A stretch of DNA of 44,527 nucleotides from Peptococcaceae bacterium (GTDB lineage Bacteria; Bacillota; Desulfitobacteriia; Desulfitobacteriales; Syntrophobotulaceae), in assembly GCA_009783315.1 (NCBI GenBank), contig WRHI01000010.1, positions 1 to 44,527 on the forward strand, given 5' to 3'. The notes under the pieces are model-generated. The model was not told the origin of the DNA. It made no database searches and saw only the letters and a program-made list of their open reading frames with translations. How positions within the stretch are numbered: position 1 is the stretch's first letter; each line of letters starts with the position of its first letter. Position numbers and translations under genes: made by a program. Positions 9,925 through 44,527 of the stretch are shown piece by piece.

Positions 9925-9960
9925 CGATTGTCGTGATTATTACCAACTGTCGAGGGTGTG

Positions 9961-12216
9961 ATGTTCAAACGGGCTACGGCTGGTCTGATTGTTCTGAGTC
10001 TTCTTGTCTGTGGTATCTGGATTTATTTTTGGCATAAGCCGCCGGGCACAGGCAAGGGGTATTTTGTGTCGTATCCTGTGAGGCAACCCTTGCATGCGGT
10101 CTGCGATTTAAGCGGTTTGTGGACGTCTTATGCCAGTGTGAGCGAGGCTTGGCAGCGTGAGAGCAGGAAACCTGGAGACGCGCAGGGTTTATTGCCTTCA
10201 CTGTCTTTTGTGCTTGAGCCGCGGCAGATCCTTTTGCCTTCCGACGAGGGGTTTGCAGTGGCCGCGAAAAGTTTTCAGATTCAGAGTGAGTGGAGCGCCA
10301 AACGTGTGACGCTGACCATCGGCGGCATTCGGGGGCGAGCGGAGGTTTATCTCAACGGCGCGGACGCAGCGCATAAGATTGGCGTGGTTGAGGGTGCCGG
10401 AACGTATTCTTTGTCGATAGAGTCGGCGCGTTTTCTTTATGGGCAAGAGAATATTCTCATCATACATATGACACAATCGGCGGCAATGGACAAGCAGATC
10501 TGGGGCGGCCGGCACGAGCAATTGGGTGTAACAGGCGCTTTGCTGTTGGAGGCTTTGCCGGAGGGGAGTCTGAGCCGCCATGGGATGAGCGCAGAATACC
10601 GGGCGGAGACCCAGGAGATTGTTTTAGCGGTGGAGGTGAGTTGTGCTCAGGAACAAGCCGGTGTCGGCGATATTCCGGGTGAATGCTGGTTGGAAGGGGA
10701 GCTGATTCGAGGCAGAACGGTCGAGGCCAAAGGAAACGTGCCGGTGCGCCGGGAGGGCGGCGGTATGTGTGTGTCCTTGCCCTTGACGCTGCAAGGGCAG
10801 CAGATTGAAATGTGGAGTCCTGAGAAGCCGGTGCTGTACGATTTGACGCTTTTTCTCAAAAACAGTCAGGGTGTTGTCGACAGTTTGCAGATGCCGCTGG
10901 GGTTTGCCCGGCCCGGTCTGGCGAGGGACGGAGGATGGGTGTTGAACGGTGAAGCTATGGCGGTGCGGGGTGTGGCCCTGACCCAGGAGCAGGCGGCGGT
11001 GCTGCAGAGCGCCAACGCGATTGAAATCTATTTGGGGATCCAAAAGGAGCAAGGCTTCAATGTGGTTTATTTGATCGAATATATCAATGAATATTGGCTT
11101 GACGCGGCTGATTTGACAGGGATAGGTCTTTGGTGCGAGTTGCCTGTGGCTATGACGGCATCGGACAAGTTGCCCGGGGATCAGGATCTGGAGGCGATGC
11201 TGAGTTTGGGGCGCAGGCATCCGTCGTTGCTGGCTTGGACGGTGCTGAAGGGTGGGGAAACGGGAAACGGCACGTCTGAATACCTTGACGCGGCGGCGCG
11301 CCTAGCGGTGCCGCGCCTTACCTATGATATCGCTTATCGTGCCTCCGCTGCCGCTTCAGGAGGCCGGCAAGATTTCCGTACGCTTGTTGTGACGGCCAAT
11401 CGCTTAACAGGACCCTGGGGAGAGATAACAGCGGCGGCGGACGAGGATATCCGAGCGGCGGCGGCCAATAGTGAAGAGGCTGTGAACCCGGGGCAGCCGC
11501 AGTCTCTGGATCACGAATCACGAACCACGAACCACGAACCCCGCCCATGGACTTGGGAGAAGGTTGCGGCGCCGCTCTGTTTTGTTTTTCTTTTGTTTGT
11601 AGAGGCGGCAAATTTGCGTGTACGCGAATTGTCTTATACCTATTTAATGACTGAGAAACATCTGAAACGTTGGACAGACGCGGTTGGCTGGATGCGGTTT
11701 ATGACCTTTGCGGGGGGTATGGCGGTGGCGGCGGCGTTATGCCTGCACGCTTTTTTGCTTATTCCTGGACGAGGGAATCCGTGGCTGGCGTATCCTTGGG
11801 GTTTTGTGGAGCGGGTGCAAAGTATGCCGCTTGTCCTGTTGTGGCTGACGCTGGGGTTGGTTTTTGTGGGGATGCGGCTTTTGCAGCTGGGTTTGGCGTC
11901 GCCGGGGTTCCGGCATTCTCCTGACGCACTCAAGATGGTTTGTTGGATTGAGCAAAGATGCAACTGGCGCTGGATTGCGGCTTTGGGCTGGGTTTGGGCC
12001 AGCTGGGGCGGGGTTTTGTGGGTGGCTTTCGCCCTTTATTTGGCGCCGGTGCTGGTCAGCTTACCGACCCGCTGGAAGGCATACCGCCGGGTTCAGGTGA
12101 AAAGAGGATTCATGTGGATTCTGCCGGTGGGGATTGTCGTTGGGGTTACGGTGTTTTTGCTGGTGCATGTCCGGGAGCTGATCTATGTATGGAAGGTGTT
12201 GGCAGTTGACAGTTGA
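9961..12216 (+). CDS. Membrane-anchored glycoside hydrolase family 2-like protein, probably non-catalytic
   Basis: The 751-residue protein starts with a membrane segment (AGLIVLSLLVCGIWIYFW). About residues 45-200 look like the GH2 sugar-binding domain (DLSGLWTSY, VYLNG, NILIIHMTQ, LGVTGALLLEALP), followed by an Ig-like domain, then a degenerate barrel (WVLNGEAMAVRGVAL, DAADLTGIGLWCELPV, RHPSLLAWTVL). In active GH2 enzymes the last motif reads HPS-x-x-x-W-x-x-x-NE with the acid/base glutamate; here it runs on as LKGGE. After an in-frame heptamer repeat (HESRTTNHEPRP), four or five membrane segments fill the last 215 residues. It may sense or bind a wall polysaccharide. A GTG at 9958 is an alternative start. 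Confidence 0.7.
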   Translation: MFKRATAGLIVLSLLVCGIWIYFWHKPPGTGKGYFVSYPVRQPLHAVCDLSGLWTSYASVSEAWQRESRKPGDAQGLLPSLSFVLEPRQILLPSDEGFAVAAKSFQIQSEWSAKRVTLTIGGIRGRAEVYLNGADAAHKIGVVEGAGTYSLSIESARFLYGQENILIIHMTQSAAMDKQIWGGRHEQLGVTGALLLEALPEGSLSRHGMSAEYRAETQEIVLAVEVSCAQEQAGVGDIPGECWLEGELIRGRTVEAKGNVPVRREGGGMCVSLPLTLQGQQIEMWSPEKPVLYDLTLFLKNSQGVVDSLQMPLGFARPGLARDGGWVLNGEAMAVRGVALTQEQAAVLQSANAIEIYLGIQKEQGFNVVYLIEYINEYWLDAADLTGIGLWCELPVAMTASDKLPGDQDLEAMLSLGRRHPSLLAWTVLKGGETGNGTSEYLDAAARLAVPRLTYDIAYRASAAASGGRQDFRTLVVTANRLTGPWGEITAAADEDIRAAAANSEEAVNPGQPQSLDHESRTTNHEPRPWTWEKVAAPLCFVFLLFVEAANLRVRELSYTYLMTEKHLKRWTDAVGWMRFMTFAGGMAVAAALCLHAFLLIPGRGNPWLAYPWGFVERVQSMPLVLLWLTLGLVFVGMRLLQLGLASPGFRHSPDALKMVCWIEQRCNWRWIAALGWVWASWGGVLWVAFALYLAPVLVSLPTRWKAYRRVQVKRGFMWILPVGIVVGVTVFLLVHVRELIYVWKVLAVDS
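11510..11543 (+). repeat. In-frame heptanucleotide repeat (CACGAAC)
   Basis: TCACGAA, TCACGAA, CCACGAA, CCACGAA repeat with period 7 inside the GH2-like gene, encoding HESRTTNHEPR between the extracellular part and the membrane part. It keeps the frame open. Confidence 0.85.
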
Positions 12217-13823: not shown

Positions 13824-15281
13824 TCAAGAAAGGGCCTCATCAAGAAGCCGCTTGATCGTACCAGGATCGCCGTTGCCGCACAGCGTACGCATAGCCTGGC
13901 CAAAGAGAAAATCCTTGGCCTTAATCTTACCGCTTCTGTAATCCTCAACAGATTTAGCATTAGCGCTGATGACGTCACTGACGACTTGTTTAATCAAAGC
14001 ATCGTCGCTTTCATTAAGAAGGTTGTGCTTTTCGCTGTAGGCGGCAGGATCGGCGTTTTCCCAGTACATAGCGGCAAAGATTTTTTTGGCGTTCAGGCGG
14101 TTGACGCTGCCCCCAGCGACCATTTTGATCAGTTGGGCCAAACGAGGCGCGTCAATACGGGTGGCGTTATCGGCTTCATCCTTTTTCATCAGGGCGAGGA
14201 GTTCACCAATGATCCAATTGGCGATCTCTTTAGGTTCGGAATGGAGCGCGCAGGTTTCCTCAAAAAGGTTAGCCAAGTCTTTGTTGACCGCGATGAGGGC
14301 GCTGTCGTATTCGGAAAGGGCGTAGTCGGCCATGTATCTGGCTTTTTTGACGTCGGGCATTTCCGGTAGGGCGGCGCGGAGATCGGCGATCCATTCGTCG
14401 CTGATGTCAAGGGGGGGAATGTCGGGGTTAGGGAAGTAGAGGTAGTCGGTAGCGTTTTCCTTGGTGCGCATGGCAAAGCTGCGGTTCTGCAGATCGTCCC
14501 AGCGCCTGGTTTCTTGTACGAGCTCTTCGGTTCCCTGTTCGAGGGCGTCAACGTGACGGCGGTATTCGTATGTGATGGCCCGGGCGATAGCTCTAAGGGA
14601 GTTCATATTTTTGATTTCTGTGCGTGTGCCGAGGGTTGTGGCGCCGGGTTCGCGAATGGAGATGTTGATATCGGCGCGCATGGAGCCTTCTTCCATTTTG
14701 CAGTCGGAGACCCCGGCACAACGGAGGATTGAGCGCAGTTTTTCCAGATAGGCCAGGGCTTCTTCGGCGGAGCGGAAGTCGGGTTGGCTGACGATTTCGA
14801 TCAGGGGAACGCCGGCCCGGTTATAATCAATGAGGCTTTGGCCGGTGTTGGGGGTGTGGAGCAATTTGCCCGCGTCTTCTTCGATGTGGATCTGTTTGAT
14901 TCGGATGGTTTTGGTCGTGCCTGCAACGTTATTGTTTTCGCCGCCAGTGACATCGGTGCTGATGTCAATGTGGCCGTCCGTGCAGATGGGCGCGTAAAAC
15001 TGAGTAATTTGGTAGGATGTAGGCAGGTCGGGGTAGTAGTAGTTTTTCTTATCGAAGAGACTGCGGGGGTTGATATGACAATTGGTGACCAGGCCGGCGG
15101 TGATGGCAAGTTCAACAGCTTTTTTGTTGAGTACGGGCAGAAGTCCAGGCATACCGCTGCAGGCCGGACAGACGTTCTCGTTGGGGTCGGCGCCGAAAGC
15201 GGCGGAGCAGGTACAAAAGAGTTTGGATTGGGTGGCCATTTCAATATGGACTTCCAGGCCCATGACCAGTTCGTAACGCAT
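13824..15281 (-). CDS. gatB: Aspartyl/glutamyl-tRNA(Asn/Gln) amidotransferase subunit B
   Basis: GatB is the kinase/transamidase part of GatCAB, which turns Glu-tRNA(Gln) or Asp-tRNA(Asn) into Gln- or Asn-tRNA. The 485-residue product has the family landmarks in order: YELVMGLEVHIEM, zinc-site cysteines in FCTCSAAFG and CPACSG, KKNYYYPDLPTSYQITQ, IHIEEDAGKLLH, DYNRAGVPLIEIV, CKMEEGSMRADINISIR, ETRRWDD, and the C-terminal tRNA-binding YqeY-like domain. AAAGGAGA precedes the ATG. It looks fully functional and is last in the order gatC-gatA-gatB, which matters because its GatA partner has lost its catalytic residues. Confidence 0.97.
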   Translation of the reverse strand: MRYELVMGLEVHIEMATQSKLFCTCSAAFGADPNENVCPACSGMPGLLPVLNKKAVELAITAGLVTNCHINPRSLFDKKNYYYPDLPTSYQITQFYAPICTDGHIDISTDVTGGENNNVAGTTKTIRIKQIHIEEDAGKLLHTPNTGQSLIDYNRAGVPLIEIVSQPDFRSAEEALAYLEKLRSILRCAGVSDCKMEEGSMRADINISIREPGATTLGTRTEIKNMNSLRAIARAITYEYRRHVDALEQGTEELVQETRRWDDLQNRSFAMRTKENATDYLYFPNPDIPPLDISDEWIADLRAALPEMPDVKKARYMADYALSEYDSALIAVNKDLANLFEETCALHSEPKEIANWIIGELLALMKKDEADNATRIDAPRLAQLIKMVAGGSVNRLNAKKIFAAMYWENADPAAYSEKHNLLNESDDALIKQVVSDVISANAKSVEDYRSGKIKAKDFLFGQAMRTLCGNGDPGTIKRLLDEALS

Positions 15282-15370: not shown

Positions 15371-16753
15371 TTAGCCTGAGAGGGCGGCCCAGGCGTCGTA
15401 TAAGTGTTGTTCGCCGCGGCTGCCGGCAACAAGTTGGATGCCTGCGGTTCCGGCAACGGCGGGCAGGCCGGCCAGAGAAGCCGGTGCTGTACAGAGCATG
15501 TCCTTCAGACTGGGTTTCGCGCCGGCAGTAACGTCTTTTTGCCGGTCTAAGGTGGGGGAGACGGGCAGCAAGAGACAGTCGAACTGCTGCAGGGCTTCAG
15601 TCAAGTGTTGGTGAATCAGGCGGCGTATTTTGAGCGCTTGCAGATAGTATTTTTCATATTGTTGCTGCGCCAAGACATAAGAACCAAGCAGAATCGTTTT
15701 TTTGACTTCATACCCAAACCCTTCGCTGCGCGAGCCAAAGTAAATGTCGTCGAGGGAGGTGCCGGTTTGGGGTCTATGGCCGAATTTTAGACCGTCATAA
15801 CGTGAAAAGTTGTTGCAGCCTTCGGCCGCGGCAATGACGGTGAGTGCCAGAGGGCCCAGTTTCACAAGGTTTGCGTACCGCGGCGGCAGAGCGTATTCCT
15901 GAACTCTGGCGTCCAGTTCTGACAGATGGGTGCTGACCCTGCGCAAGGTGTCAGGTTGTTGTGACAATGTCCACCAGTCTGTGGCGATGCCAACGCGCAT
16001 TCCTGCCAAGCCGTTTCGCGATGTGAGTGTTATGGGAGGTTCGGAGGTATCGGGGAGGCTTGTGCCGTCTCGGGGGTCATGACCGGAAATTATGTTGAGC
16101 AGAGCCGCGGCGTCATGAATGTTGGCGGCAGCGGCACCGATTTGTTCGGCGGAGGGGACGTAGGCAATAAGTCCGAAACGGGAGACGCGGCCATAGGTGG
16201 GTTTGAGAAAGACGGTGCCGGTTAAGGCGGCATGTTTGCGTTGAGCGCCGATGCTGTCGCTGCAAAGGGCAAGTGGGACAAGCCGCGAGGCGATAGCGGC
16301 GGCGGCTCCGCCGGTTGTGGCGGCGGGATCGCGGGGGTTGGGGGTGGAACCGTGCCAACAGGTGTCGCCGCTGTTGCCGACCCCGAATTCGTCGGTGTTG
16401 GTGCGGCCGATGGGGATGAGACCGGCGGCGCGGATTTTTTCGATGACAGTGGCGCTGAAAGGGGCTTTAAAGGTGTCGAGCATGCGGGAACCGGCTGTGC
16501 AGCGGTCGCCGCGCACCAGAATTGTGTCGTCTATGGCGATGGGTACGCCTGCCAGGAGGGAAGGGCAGTCCCCGCGTTCCAGTTGGGCGTCTAGTGCCGT
16601 GGCGGCGTCCAAGGCGGTTTCCGGGGTGGTGTCCAGGAAGCAGTTGTTGGGGTCCGTGGTGATCCGTTCAAGGGTATGTTTGGTGACTTCAAGGGCCGTC
16701 AAGTCGCGCCGCCGGATTTTTTCCGCGAGTGTGAGGGCGTTGAGGGTGTGCAT
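15371..16753 (-). CDS. gatA: GatA-type amidase-signature protein with substituted catalytic triad
   Basis: GatA normally hydrolyses glutamine to give ammonia to GatB through a Lys / cis-Ser / Ser triad. This 460-residue protein aligns with GatA along its length (LAGVPIAI, IGRTNTDEFGVGNS, LKPTYGRVSRFGLIAYVPS, GFGYEVKKTILLGSYVLA), but IAIKDN is IAIDDT (Lys to Asp75), GGSSGGS is AATTGGA (cis-Ser to Thr146), and GSDTGGSIR is CSDSIGAQR (nucleophile to Ala170). I checked these codons in the DNA. The gene is intact, with an AGAAAGG site and normal operon position, so it is not simply decaying. It may be a structural GatA using free ammonia, or a partner may supply the amidase. Confidence 0.9.
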   Translation of the reverse strand: MHTLNALTLAEKIRRRDLTALEVTKHTLERITTDPNNCFLDTTPETALDAATALDAQLERGDCPSLLAGVPIAIDDTILVRGDRCTAGSRMLDTFKAPFSATVIEKIRAAGLIPIGRTNTDEFGVGNSGDTCWHGSTPNPRDPAATTGGAAAAIASRLVPLALCSDSIGAQRKHAALTGTVFLKPTYGRVSRFGLIAYVPSAEQIGAAAANIHDAAALLNIISGHDPRDGTSLPDTSEPPITLTSRNGLAGMRVGIATDWWTLSQQPDTLRRVSTHLSELDARVQEYALPPRYANLVKLGPLALTVIAAAEGCNNFSRYDGLKFGHRPQTGTSLDDIYFGSRSEGFGYEVKKTILLGSYVLAQQQYEKYYLQALKIRRLIHQHLTEALQQFDCLLLPVSPTLDRQKDVTAGAKPSLKDMLCTAPASLAGLPAVAGTAGIQLVAGSRGEQHLYDAWAALSG

Positions 16754-16795: not shown

Positions 16796-17077
16796 CTATT
16801 CGAGGACTTTGGGCGCCACGAAACAACCTTGATCCTGTTCGGGAGCGTTGGCCAGAATTTCGTCGCGGTGTACCATGGGGACGACGGTGTCGGCGCGCAT
16901 GACTGTTCCTAGAGAATTAATCTGGATCATAGGTTCTACCTGACTTGTTTCGGCGTTGGCTAAGGGTTCCAAAGCGCTTAGCAACAAGGTAAAATCTTCA
17001 CAGAGAGCCAGATTTTCCTCAGGACTGAGACGCAGCTTGTTGAGGTTGGCGAGGGTGTTGAGCGTTTCGTCATTCAT
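16796..17077 (-). CDS. gatC: Aspartyl/glutamyl-tRNA amidotransferase subunit C
   Basis: GatC is a small belt-like subunit that holds GatA to GatB. The 93-residue frame MNDETLNTLANLNKLRLSPEE ... ANAPEQDQGCFVAPKVLE has the GatC start (LANLNKLRLS) and the conserved end (LANAPE ... VPKV-like). The ATG at 17077 fits the family start; a longer frame upstream has no homology. The ribosome binding site is modest (AAGAAAGG, 13 bases away). It is the first gene of gatCAB on this strand. Confidence 0.92.
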   Translation of the reverse strand: MNDETLNTLANLNKLRLSPEENLALCEDFTLLLSALEPLANAETSQVEPMIQINSLGTVMRADTVVPMVHRDEILANAPEQDQGCFVAPKVLE

Positions 17078-17241
17078 TTGGAAGATCAAACCTTTCTTGG
17101 ATAGCTGAATGATGGGTTGTAGGGATGAAGCCAAACCCAGAATAAGGATAGCAGTTTTTAACGGTCCTGTAAACCTGCTGCGATGATGTCGTGTTGTTAA
17201 CCTGCAATGATGTCGTTGAGCCGAGATCAGGGTCGTTCCCC

Positions 17242-18357
17242 TCATAACCCGTATTTAACAGCTTTTAGATAAAAATCTGTGATTTTGTCAACGACATCGA
17301 ACGCGTCATATCCACGGGCAACCACATACCGCCAGGCGGTTGGCTTCCGTTTGGGGGGGCGGCATAAATGGTCTTGCCAGACTTCCTCAGCTAACGGTAG
17401 AAACTGGACAAGTCCCGCGCCCATGTCTGCTGAACGGGGCACGCCTGTGGAAGCGAGACAGGGCAACCCGTTGGCTTGGGCTTCAACCACAGCTGTTCCT
17501 AACCCTTCGGCCAGCGAAGGAACAGCCAGGATATCCAGAGCGTTAAGGAGCTGGGAAATGTCATCGCGTTCGCCCCAGAACTGGACATAGGGCAAGAGAT
17601 GCAGTTCAGCAGCGAGGGCCTGCAAGGCGCCTATTTCTGAACCACAGCCGAAAAATACGAGGAGGGCGTCGGGCCGGCGCGCGTGCAGACGCGCGAAGAC
17701 ACGCAGCAAAAACTGCGGGTTTTTTATGGCTTCCAACCGCCCGACATAGCCGATAACATAAGCGTTGTCCCATCCGTGCCGCTTCCGTAGATATTGCCGG
17801 TAATCATCACGAAAAAGAAAATCGCGAACATTTACGGCGTCGGGGATGACCTGAACTTTGCGGGGTGGCCAGCCGAACAGCCAACGTGCTCCTTCTTTGG
17901 AACAGGCAGCGTAATGTGTTGCGTAGCGCCGGATAAACCAGCCCCAGGAGTATTTGTACAGGCGTGTTAAGGTGGCGCCTGTGGTTCTTTTGGCGTGACT
18001 GTGGGCAATGCGTATGGGGATGCCGGCGTCGTCGGCCGCGGCCAGGACTAGCCCGGACATACGGTCAAGGTGCGAATGGATGACGGGATAGGTAAACAAG
18101 GGCAGAGCATGAAAAAAGCCGCGGAGTTTGGCATAATACGCCTGCCCCGGCAGGGTAAACTTGGACGTTGTTTGGTAAGGGACGCGATAAACCCGTCCGC
18201 CCAGTAAGTCAATTTCCTCCTCATAAACACCAACCTGATCGGTTTGGACAAGAAAGTCAAACTGGAGCTGCGAACGGTTGACGCGTCGATAGACATTCAT
18301 CATCATATTCTCAACGCCGCCCCGATCCAATGAGTTGACAACATGGAGAACCCGCAT
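17242..18357 (-). CDS. GT4-family glycosyltransferase
   Basis: The 371-residue protein has the GT-B layout. The N-terminal domain begins MRVLHVVNSLDRGGVENMM, the acceptor side shows HSHLDRMSGL and HSHAKRT, and the C-terminal domain has IPDAVNVRDF, YVGRLEAIKNPQFLL and the donor-binding EGLGTAVVE (E-x7-E). It resembles EpsF/CapM-type enzymes that build exopolysaccharide or wall glycopolymer precursors at the inner membrane. The ATG at 18357 follows AAGGTGG at 8 bases; a GTG at 18369 overlaps that site. It is divergent from mraZ and about 165 bases upstream of gatC. Confidence 0.9.
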   Translation of the reverse strand: MRVLHVVNSLDRGGVENMMMNVYRRVNRSQLQFDFLVQTDQVGVYEEEIDLLGGRVYRVPYQTTSKFTLPGQAYYAKLRGFFHALPLFTYPVIHSHLDRMSGLVLAAADDAGIPIRIAHSHAKRTTGATLTRLYKYSWGWFIRRYATHYAACSKEGARWLFGWPPRKVQVIPDAVNVRDFLFRDDYRQYLRKRHGWDNAYVIGYVGRLEAIKNPQFLLRVFARLHARRPDALLVFFGCGSEIGALQALAAELHLLPYVQFWGERDDISQLLNALDILAVPSLAEGLGTAVVEAQANGLPCLASTGVPRSADMGAGLVQFLPLAEEVWQDHLCRPPKRKPTAWRYVVARGYDAFDVVDKITDFYLKAVKYGL

Positions 18358-18609
18358 AATTTCGACCACCTTGAATTATCCCGTTCTTCATCAAGGATCA
18401 GGATAAGGAGTATTTTCCAGAAATAGCATAACTGTACTAGTTTTTCAATTTTTGAGTCAATGCATACATTTTGCAGTGAATAAGTTTGATGTTGCGCTAT
18501 GGTTACGCAAGATAAAAGAGTCTGGGCGTTCAGGCAAATGCGCCGCGCAAAGAATTTATTTATATATTCCCAACATTCCGGCAGGAATCACTATGGTTAT
18601 GATAGAATA

Positions 18610-44447: not shown

Positions 44448-44527
44448 GTCGAGTAGCCCGAAGGAGTTTCACCCTCAGGCTCTCACAGAACCGTACGTGA
44501 CACTCTCGCGTCATACGGCTCTTGTTA
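44448..44527 (-). mobile_element. Group II intron fragment (continues beyond window)
   Basis: On the minus strand AGAGCCGTATGACGCGAGAG, CACGTACGGTTCTGTGAG and CTGAGGGTGAAACTCC, ending GGGCTACTCGAC, is the conserved RNA segment found just before the reverse transcriptase gene in many bacterial group II introns. It is followed not by a reverse transcriptase frame but by repeat sequence, so this copy is probably cut at its 3' side. The 5' side is outside the window. Confidence 0.75.

Follow-up and report, generated by a model that had tools for sequence, protein, structure and literature searches.

The gatCAB locus

The window, the whole stretch of 44,527 nucleotides analysed here, encodes on its minus strand the three subunits of a GatCAB amidotransferase in the order gatC, gatA, gatB:

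gatC, 16796 to 17080, minus strand: conserved 94-residue part, in an ORF that is open up to 17245
gatA, 15371 to 16753, minus strand: 460 residues; putative pseudo-glutaminase with the amidase-signature fold, triad lost
gatB, 13824 to 15281, minus strand: 485 residues; kinase/transamidase site intact (E10, H12, E134, E162, S165, N206, S208)

The operon is flanked on one side by a glycosyltransferase gene (17242-18369), with mraZ-like and rsmH-like genes, named from their translations, on the plus strand from 18620, and on the other side by unrelated genes. A 752-residue protein with no Pfam match (window 9958-12216) is also kept beside gatCAB in a congeneric species, G002, at 61% identity. The window further contains a 531-residue ORF (1314-2909) consisting largely of collagen-type triple-helix repeats (PF01391) and, at its edge, a Group II intron domain (44448-44523, minus strand; RF00029, 63.9 bits). 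The three gat genes also lie together in both congeneric species, G001 and G002, which like the window genome (G000) are represented by fragmented draft assemblies that are 91-94% complete. A sequence-only reading of this DNA had described an otherwise intact operon with a gatA of normal frame and length; strand, frame and length proved to be as described, and gatC and gatB are both present.

GatA has lost its catalytic triad and both glutamine ligands

The gatA gene is an uninterrupted frame of 460 codons within the operon. Its product is GatA-like along its entire length (TIGR00132, 326.7 bits, E = 2.3e-97), a score below the curated cut-off of 481.1, as expected for a divergent member of the family, and its best matches in the PDB are GatA chains (E = 6.5e-82). 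The predicted structure, a model of medium confidence (mean pLDDT 72, shallow alignment), has the amidase fold and superimposes best on S. aureus GatA (2df4_A; Z 44.6, rmsd 3.0, 424 residues aligned). The positions that serve glutamine hydrolysis are nevertheless replaced:

codon 75, 16529 to 16531, minus strand: GAC (Asp) where the catalytic Lys is expected; the three species of the genus all have Asp, the 111 other GatAs all have Lys
codon 146, 16316 to 16318, minus strand: ACA (Thr) at the cis-Ser site; Leu in both congeners
codon 170, 16244 to 16246, minus strand: GCT (Ala) at the nucleophile Ser site; Ala in G002, Thr in G001
codon 353, 15695 to 15697, minus strand: Thr, where other GatAs have an Arg that contacts the carboxylate of glutamine; alignment column, role from yeast R334
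codon 419, 15497 to 15499, minus strand: Met in place of a glutamine-binding Asp; alignment column, role from yeast D418

Read from the raw sequence, the three triad motifs are ATC GCC ATA GAC GAC ACA (IAIDDT), GCC GCC ACA ACC GGC GGA GCC (AATTGGA) and TGC AGC GAC AGC ATC GGC GCT CAA CGC (CSDSIGAQR), so that the Lys/cis-Ser/Ser triad has become Asp75/Thr146/Ala170 and none of the three canonical positions is kept. These codons, together with an alignment of 114 GatAs, bear out the triad replacement claimed in the sequence-only reading, which left the loss of the two glutamine-binding residues unmentioned. In the yeast enzyme the substrate glutamine is bound by R334 and D418 (PMC4027206); through the surrounding conserved motifs we equated these two residues with the Arg of an EVKRR motif and the Asp of a GD-YT motif. 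With triad and ligands gone, this GatA would be unable to hydrolyse or even bind glutamine, a prediction that forms part of the broader reading of GatCAB which we consider probable (see below).

The alignment comprised the three congeners and 111 other GatAs from the same family, the same order and the Proteobacteria; the latter were gathered by similarity and are a sample rather than a survey of all bacteria. In all 111 the five columns read K, S, S, R and D, and a search among them for a comparable triad loss found none. In the window genome, G002 and G001 (in that order) the same columns read D/D/D, T/L/L, A/A/T, T/T/T and M/T/M. Both congeneric GatAs are full length, free of the stop codons that would have pointed to simple decay, and show the same kind of change, having Asp at the Lys site and no Ser at either Ser site. 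The three proteins are 61-67% identical to one another, and D75-D76-T77 of IAIDDT is unchanged in all of them. Sequencing error can be excluded as the cause, since the same kind of change is found in two other MAG assemblies. A second, intact GatA, which had been entertained earlier, is excluded by the genome search as well: the window genome (93.7% complete, 151 contigs) contains a single amidase-family locus. Among 61 genomes of the order, only G001 and G002 besides the window genome have a similarly divergent GatA as their sole full-length amidase gene.

gatA and gatB remain under purifying selection

Between the three species, dN is 0.23-0.29 and dS 1.1-1.5 for gatA (dN/dS ∼0.2), compared with 0.11-0.14 and 0.9-1.2 for gatB (dN/dS ∼0.1); both genes are thus constrained, gatA less so. 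All ATP- and Mg-binding residues of GatB named in PMC4027206 are kept, and the window species retains 102 of 119 near-invariant columns in GatB as against 86 of 142 in GatA. Residue 88 of GatB (window 15018-15020), which aligns with S. aureus Lys88 and is near-invariant elsewhere, is Thr in all three species. At residue 166 (14784-14786) the three species have Gln or His, where Glu166 is near-invariant elsewhere. These two changes might concern the ammonia path.

GatA has diverged faster than its partner. Across 310 species pairs with matching GatB identity (74-86%), GatA identity is 72 ± 4, compared with 61-67 within the genus, and root-to-tip distances are 2.4-2.7 for GatA (∼1.15 in relatives) and 1.9 for GatB (∼1.65 in relatives). 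Most of the excess GatA divergence lies on the stem branch, which is about twice its expected length, so GatA appears to have passed through one fast phase and to have been held afterwards. The long stem and the species-varying residues at the dead site could reflect relaxed selection. They also lend some credit to the view that GatCAB is vestigial, the GatA site having been lost first from an operon that is now disappearing, as does the presence of both GlnRS and AsnRS, with which the complex would be unneeded. Against this, the frames are intact in three species that have diverged to the extent given above, dN/dS is low for both genes, the GatB active site is wholly conserved and IAIDDT is the same in each species; we regard a vestigial complex as unlikely. 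Purifying selection on gatA, its full-length frames in three species and the intact GatB site support instead the suggestion, already made from the single sequence, that GatA is a maintained pseudo-glutaminase.

A maintained pseudoenzyme need not take part in amidation. GatA might have turned into a scaffold or regulator of a complex that no longer amidates, perhaps as a member of an AspRS-tRNA(Asn) transamidosome; such assemblies exist (4wj3 and 3kfu are among the PDB matches), and the invariance of D75-D76-T77 suggests a non-catalytic constraint. It is the catalytic residues of GatB that are conserved, however, and not its surfaces alone, which makes a purely scaffolding role quite improbable.

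Synthetases and routes to asparagine

A search for glnS and asnS, proposed in the sequence-only reading, showed that the genus has both GlnRS and AsnRS, in addition to GluRS and one AspRS, and GatCAB is therefore not strictly needed for translation. AsnA is absent from all 12 genomes searched, and AsnB, present in most relatives tested, is absent from the window genome and G002. The tRNA(Asn) carries the U1-A72 pair, which is required and recognised by GatCAB (PMC4206432). At a site occupied by Leu in E. coli, the AspRS shares a His with the P. aeruginosa enzyme, which the PDB names an Asp/Asn ligase, and its motif RPEG corresponds to RDEK in E. coli; these residues hint at a possibly relaxed specificity, as a non-discriminating enzyme would have. 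The same synthetase set is found in Bdellovibrio, in which a non-discriminating AspRS and GatCAB make asparagine and AsnA and AsnB are lacking (PMC4206432). The only AsnB-like protein in the three genomes is a 673-residue product of G001 (L194 1793-3811, minus strand), which starts MSGILGY, with Ser where the family has its nucleophile Cys. Either a genuine AsnB that depends on ammonia or a cyclase resembling AsnB could fit this sequence.

Glutaminases have been lost from unrelated amidotransferases

Since GatCAB is perhaps glutamine-free, the other amidotransferases of the genus were examined. In CarA the triad Cys269-His353-Glu355 (E. coli numbering, computed from the K-12 sequence) is replaced by Gly-Val-Asp in the window genome and by Gly-Val-Thr in G002, whereas CarA of three relatives (G004, G006 and G009) has Cys-His-Glu. 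No match to carA was found anywhere in G001, which retains carB directly behind purF; in this genome (L249 2159-6941) purF lies immediately upstream of carB, at the expected place of carA. GMP synthetase (GuaA) is encoded by ORFs of 334, 323 and 327 residues in the three species, compared with 512-531 in relatives; these comprise the ATP-pyrophosphatase and dimerisation part alone and lack the glutaminase (GATase) domain. No separate GATase subunit for GuaA was seen, a PF00117 search of the three genomes finding only CarA, PyrG and, in G001, TrpG/PabA. The ATP-pyrophosphatase part of GMP synthetase can by itself use external ammonia (PMC10526850).

The hisH gene, located between hisB and hisA in the relatives G003, G004 and G009, does not occur in the his operons of the genus. 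The hisB-hisA gap measures ∼110 bases in the window genome and ∼40 in G002, with hisF kept, and G001 has the order hisA-hisF-hisI and no hisH match. GlmS is absent from all three species (found in G003, G004, G006 and G009), in which GlmM and GlmU are present; NagB, not found in G006 or G009, is present in all three and might, running in reverse with ammonia, supply glucosamine-6-phosphate. Similarly, no full-length GltB was found in the three species (found in G004 and G009), all of which have an NADP-GDH that is 68-69% identical to that of E. coli in the searched segment and have kept GlnA. AmtB is absent from the three species, compared with two copies each in G006 and G009. NadE of the genus is the short, single-domain form (264-289 residues, versus 644-681 in G006 and G009), which is known to use ammonia (PMC3376133).

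Losses are not universal. CTP synthase (PyrG) keeps its Cys throughout, with the catalytic His changed to Phe in the window genome and G002 and the site intact in G001. In the window genome (L246, contig C20) and G002 (L253) this altered pyrG adjoins the GATase-less guaA. The glutaminase cysteines of PurF and PurL are present in all three species, TrpG/PabA is intact in G001, and GATase_6 proteins are confined to PurF and the AsnB-like protein of G001. We therefore rejected a loss of every glutaminase, and glutamine use does not appear to have been abolished in the genus. The retained enzymes also bear on the earlier proposal that GatCAB receives ammonia from another glutaminase, docked on GatA or GatB and feeding the tunnel with glutamine nitrogen. 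Separate glutaminase subunits serve many amidotransferases, as is well established; yet no candidate gene lies beside gatCAB, and the PF00117 and GATase_6 searches returned nothing beyond the proteins named above, so that we consider a docking partner very improbable.

The relatives tested have the canonical, glutamine-dependent forms. Short NadE, NagB and GDH are common in bacteria, and each loss could be dismissed alone; taken together, they occur in three species and arose by different routes (point mutation, loss of a domain, loss of a gene), which makes chance unlikely. In each loss the ammonia-using synthetase partner, where one exists, has been spared, a pattern that also speaks against a vestigial GatCAB. 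Gene absences in drafts of this completeness are weak evidence singly. Completeness has no bearing, however, on what was positively observed: the hisB-hisA junctions, the place where GuaA begins, and the residues of CarA and GatA.

A probable ammonia-fed GatCAB

Taken together, we infer that GatCAB of this genus is probably an ammonia-dependent Asp-tRNA(Asn) amidotransferase, part of a genus-wide shift from glutamine to free ammonia. The presumed non-discriminating AspRS would charge Asp onto tRNA(Asn), GatB would activate the side chain of this Asp by phosphorylation, and amidation to Asn-tRNA(Asn) would be completed by free NH3. GatA would be retained as a structural partner of GatB and GatC, probably forming the mouth of the ammonia path, where, more speculatively, Asp in place of Lys may favour ammonium. 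With neither AsnA nor AsnB in the window species and G002, GatCAB would be their sole visible route to asparagine. The parallel loss of glutaminases from unrelated amidotransferases of the genus strongly favours the use of free ammonia, one of the options raised in the sequence-only reading. Amidotransferases of this type can also work with NH4Cl if the glutaminase step is bypassed (PMC4027206). Against the ammonia reading we count that GatCAB is not strictly required for translation, the varying residues at the dead site and the long GatA stem, the AsnB-like protein of G001, the glutaminase cysteines kept in PurF and PurL and in PyrG and TrpG/PabA of G001, and the fragmented state of all three drafts.

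The habitat is consistent with an ammonia-fed complex. G001 and G002 correspond to MAGs Nt197P3bin37 and Nt197P3bin79 (both 'Peptococcaceae bacterium'), which come from one sample of Neocapritermes taracua, a humus-feeding termite, taken from its P3 hindgut (PMC7024585); the window genome presumably shares this habitat. Ammonia in termite guts is high, and the measured species range from 69 to 900 μmol per g dry weight (PMC4675541). An ammonia-rich hindgut would make the replacement of glutamine possible: NH3 would enter the cells without AmtB, which would serve no purpose at high ammonia, and would feed GatB, CarB, GuaA, HisF, NadE, NagB and GDH directly.

Canonical GatCAB (S. aureus 2df4, A. 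aeolicus 3h0l, P. aeruginosa 4wj3) resembles the complex described here in the GatA fold and the GatB active site, in being made of three subunits encoded in an operon, and in sequence over the full length; it differs in having the Lys/Ser/Ser triad and both glutamine ligands, which are replaced throughout this genus. The Bdellovibrio bacteriovorus type (PMC4206432) shares with G000 and G002 the gene set of AsnRS, GlnRS and GatCAB without AsnA or AsnB, U1-A72 and the presumed role in asparagine supply, but here glutamine could not serve as nitrogen donor through GatA, and the AspRS is only presumed to be non-discriminating. Single-domain NadE (PMC3376133) is likewise a synthetase family that uses free ammonia in vivo without a glutaminase; it is, however, one widespread family and the proposed ancestral form, whereas here several unrelated enzymes have lost an ancestral glutaminase. 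In glutaminase-impaired forms of yeast mitochondrial GatFAB, too, NH4Cl can drive transamidation with the glutaminase bypassed (PMC4027206). Those are laboratory mutants, whereas the state in this genus is natural and fixed. The open-access literature searched contains no published precedent for a natural GatA triad loss or a genome-wide loss of glutaminases.

On balance, we lean towards the view that nitrogen transfer from glutamine has been largely dismantled in the genus, with tRNA amidation and the synthesis of carbamoyl phosphate, GMP, histidine, amino sugars, NAD and, in part, CTP running on free ammonia. It would have got there by point mutation of GatA, CarA and PyrG, deletion of the GuaA glutaminase domain and loss of HisH, GlmS and GltB, with NagB and NADP-GDH used instead, leaving GatA and CarA as pseudo-glutaminases with a possible part in binding or admitting ammonium. 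The textbook view holds that cells pay for glutamine and have ammonia channels because free ammonia is scarce inside the cell. A lineage that has shed many glutaminases singly and kept the synthetases would be a natural experiment on the reasons for which glutaminases and ammonia tunnels persist. It would also offer enzymology natural 'synthetase-only' forms of GatCAB, carbamoyl-phosphate synthetase and GMP synthetase, and the joint losses would serve as a signature, readable in the genome, of living with much ammonia.
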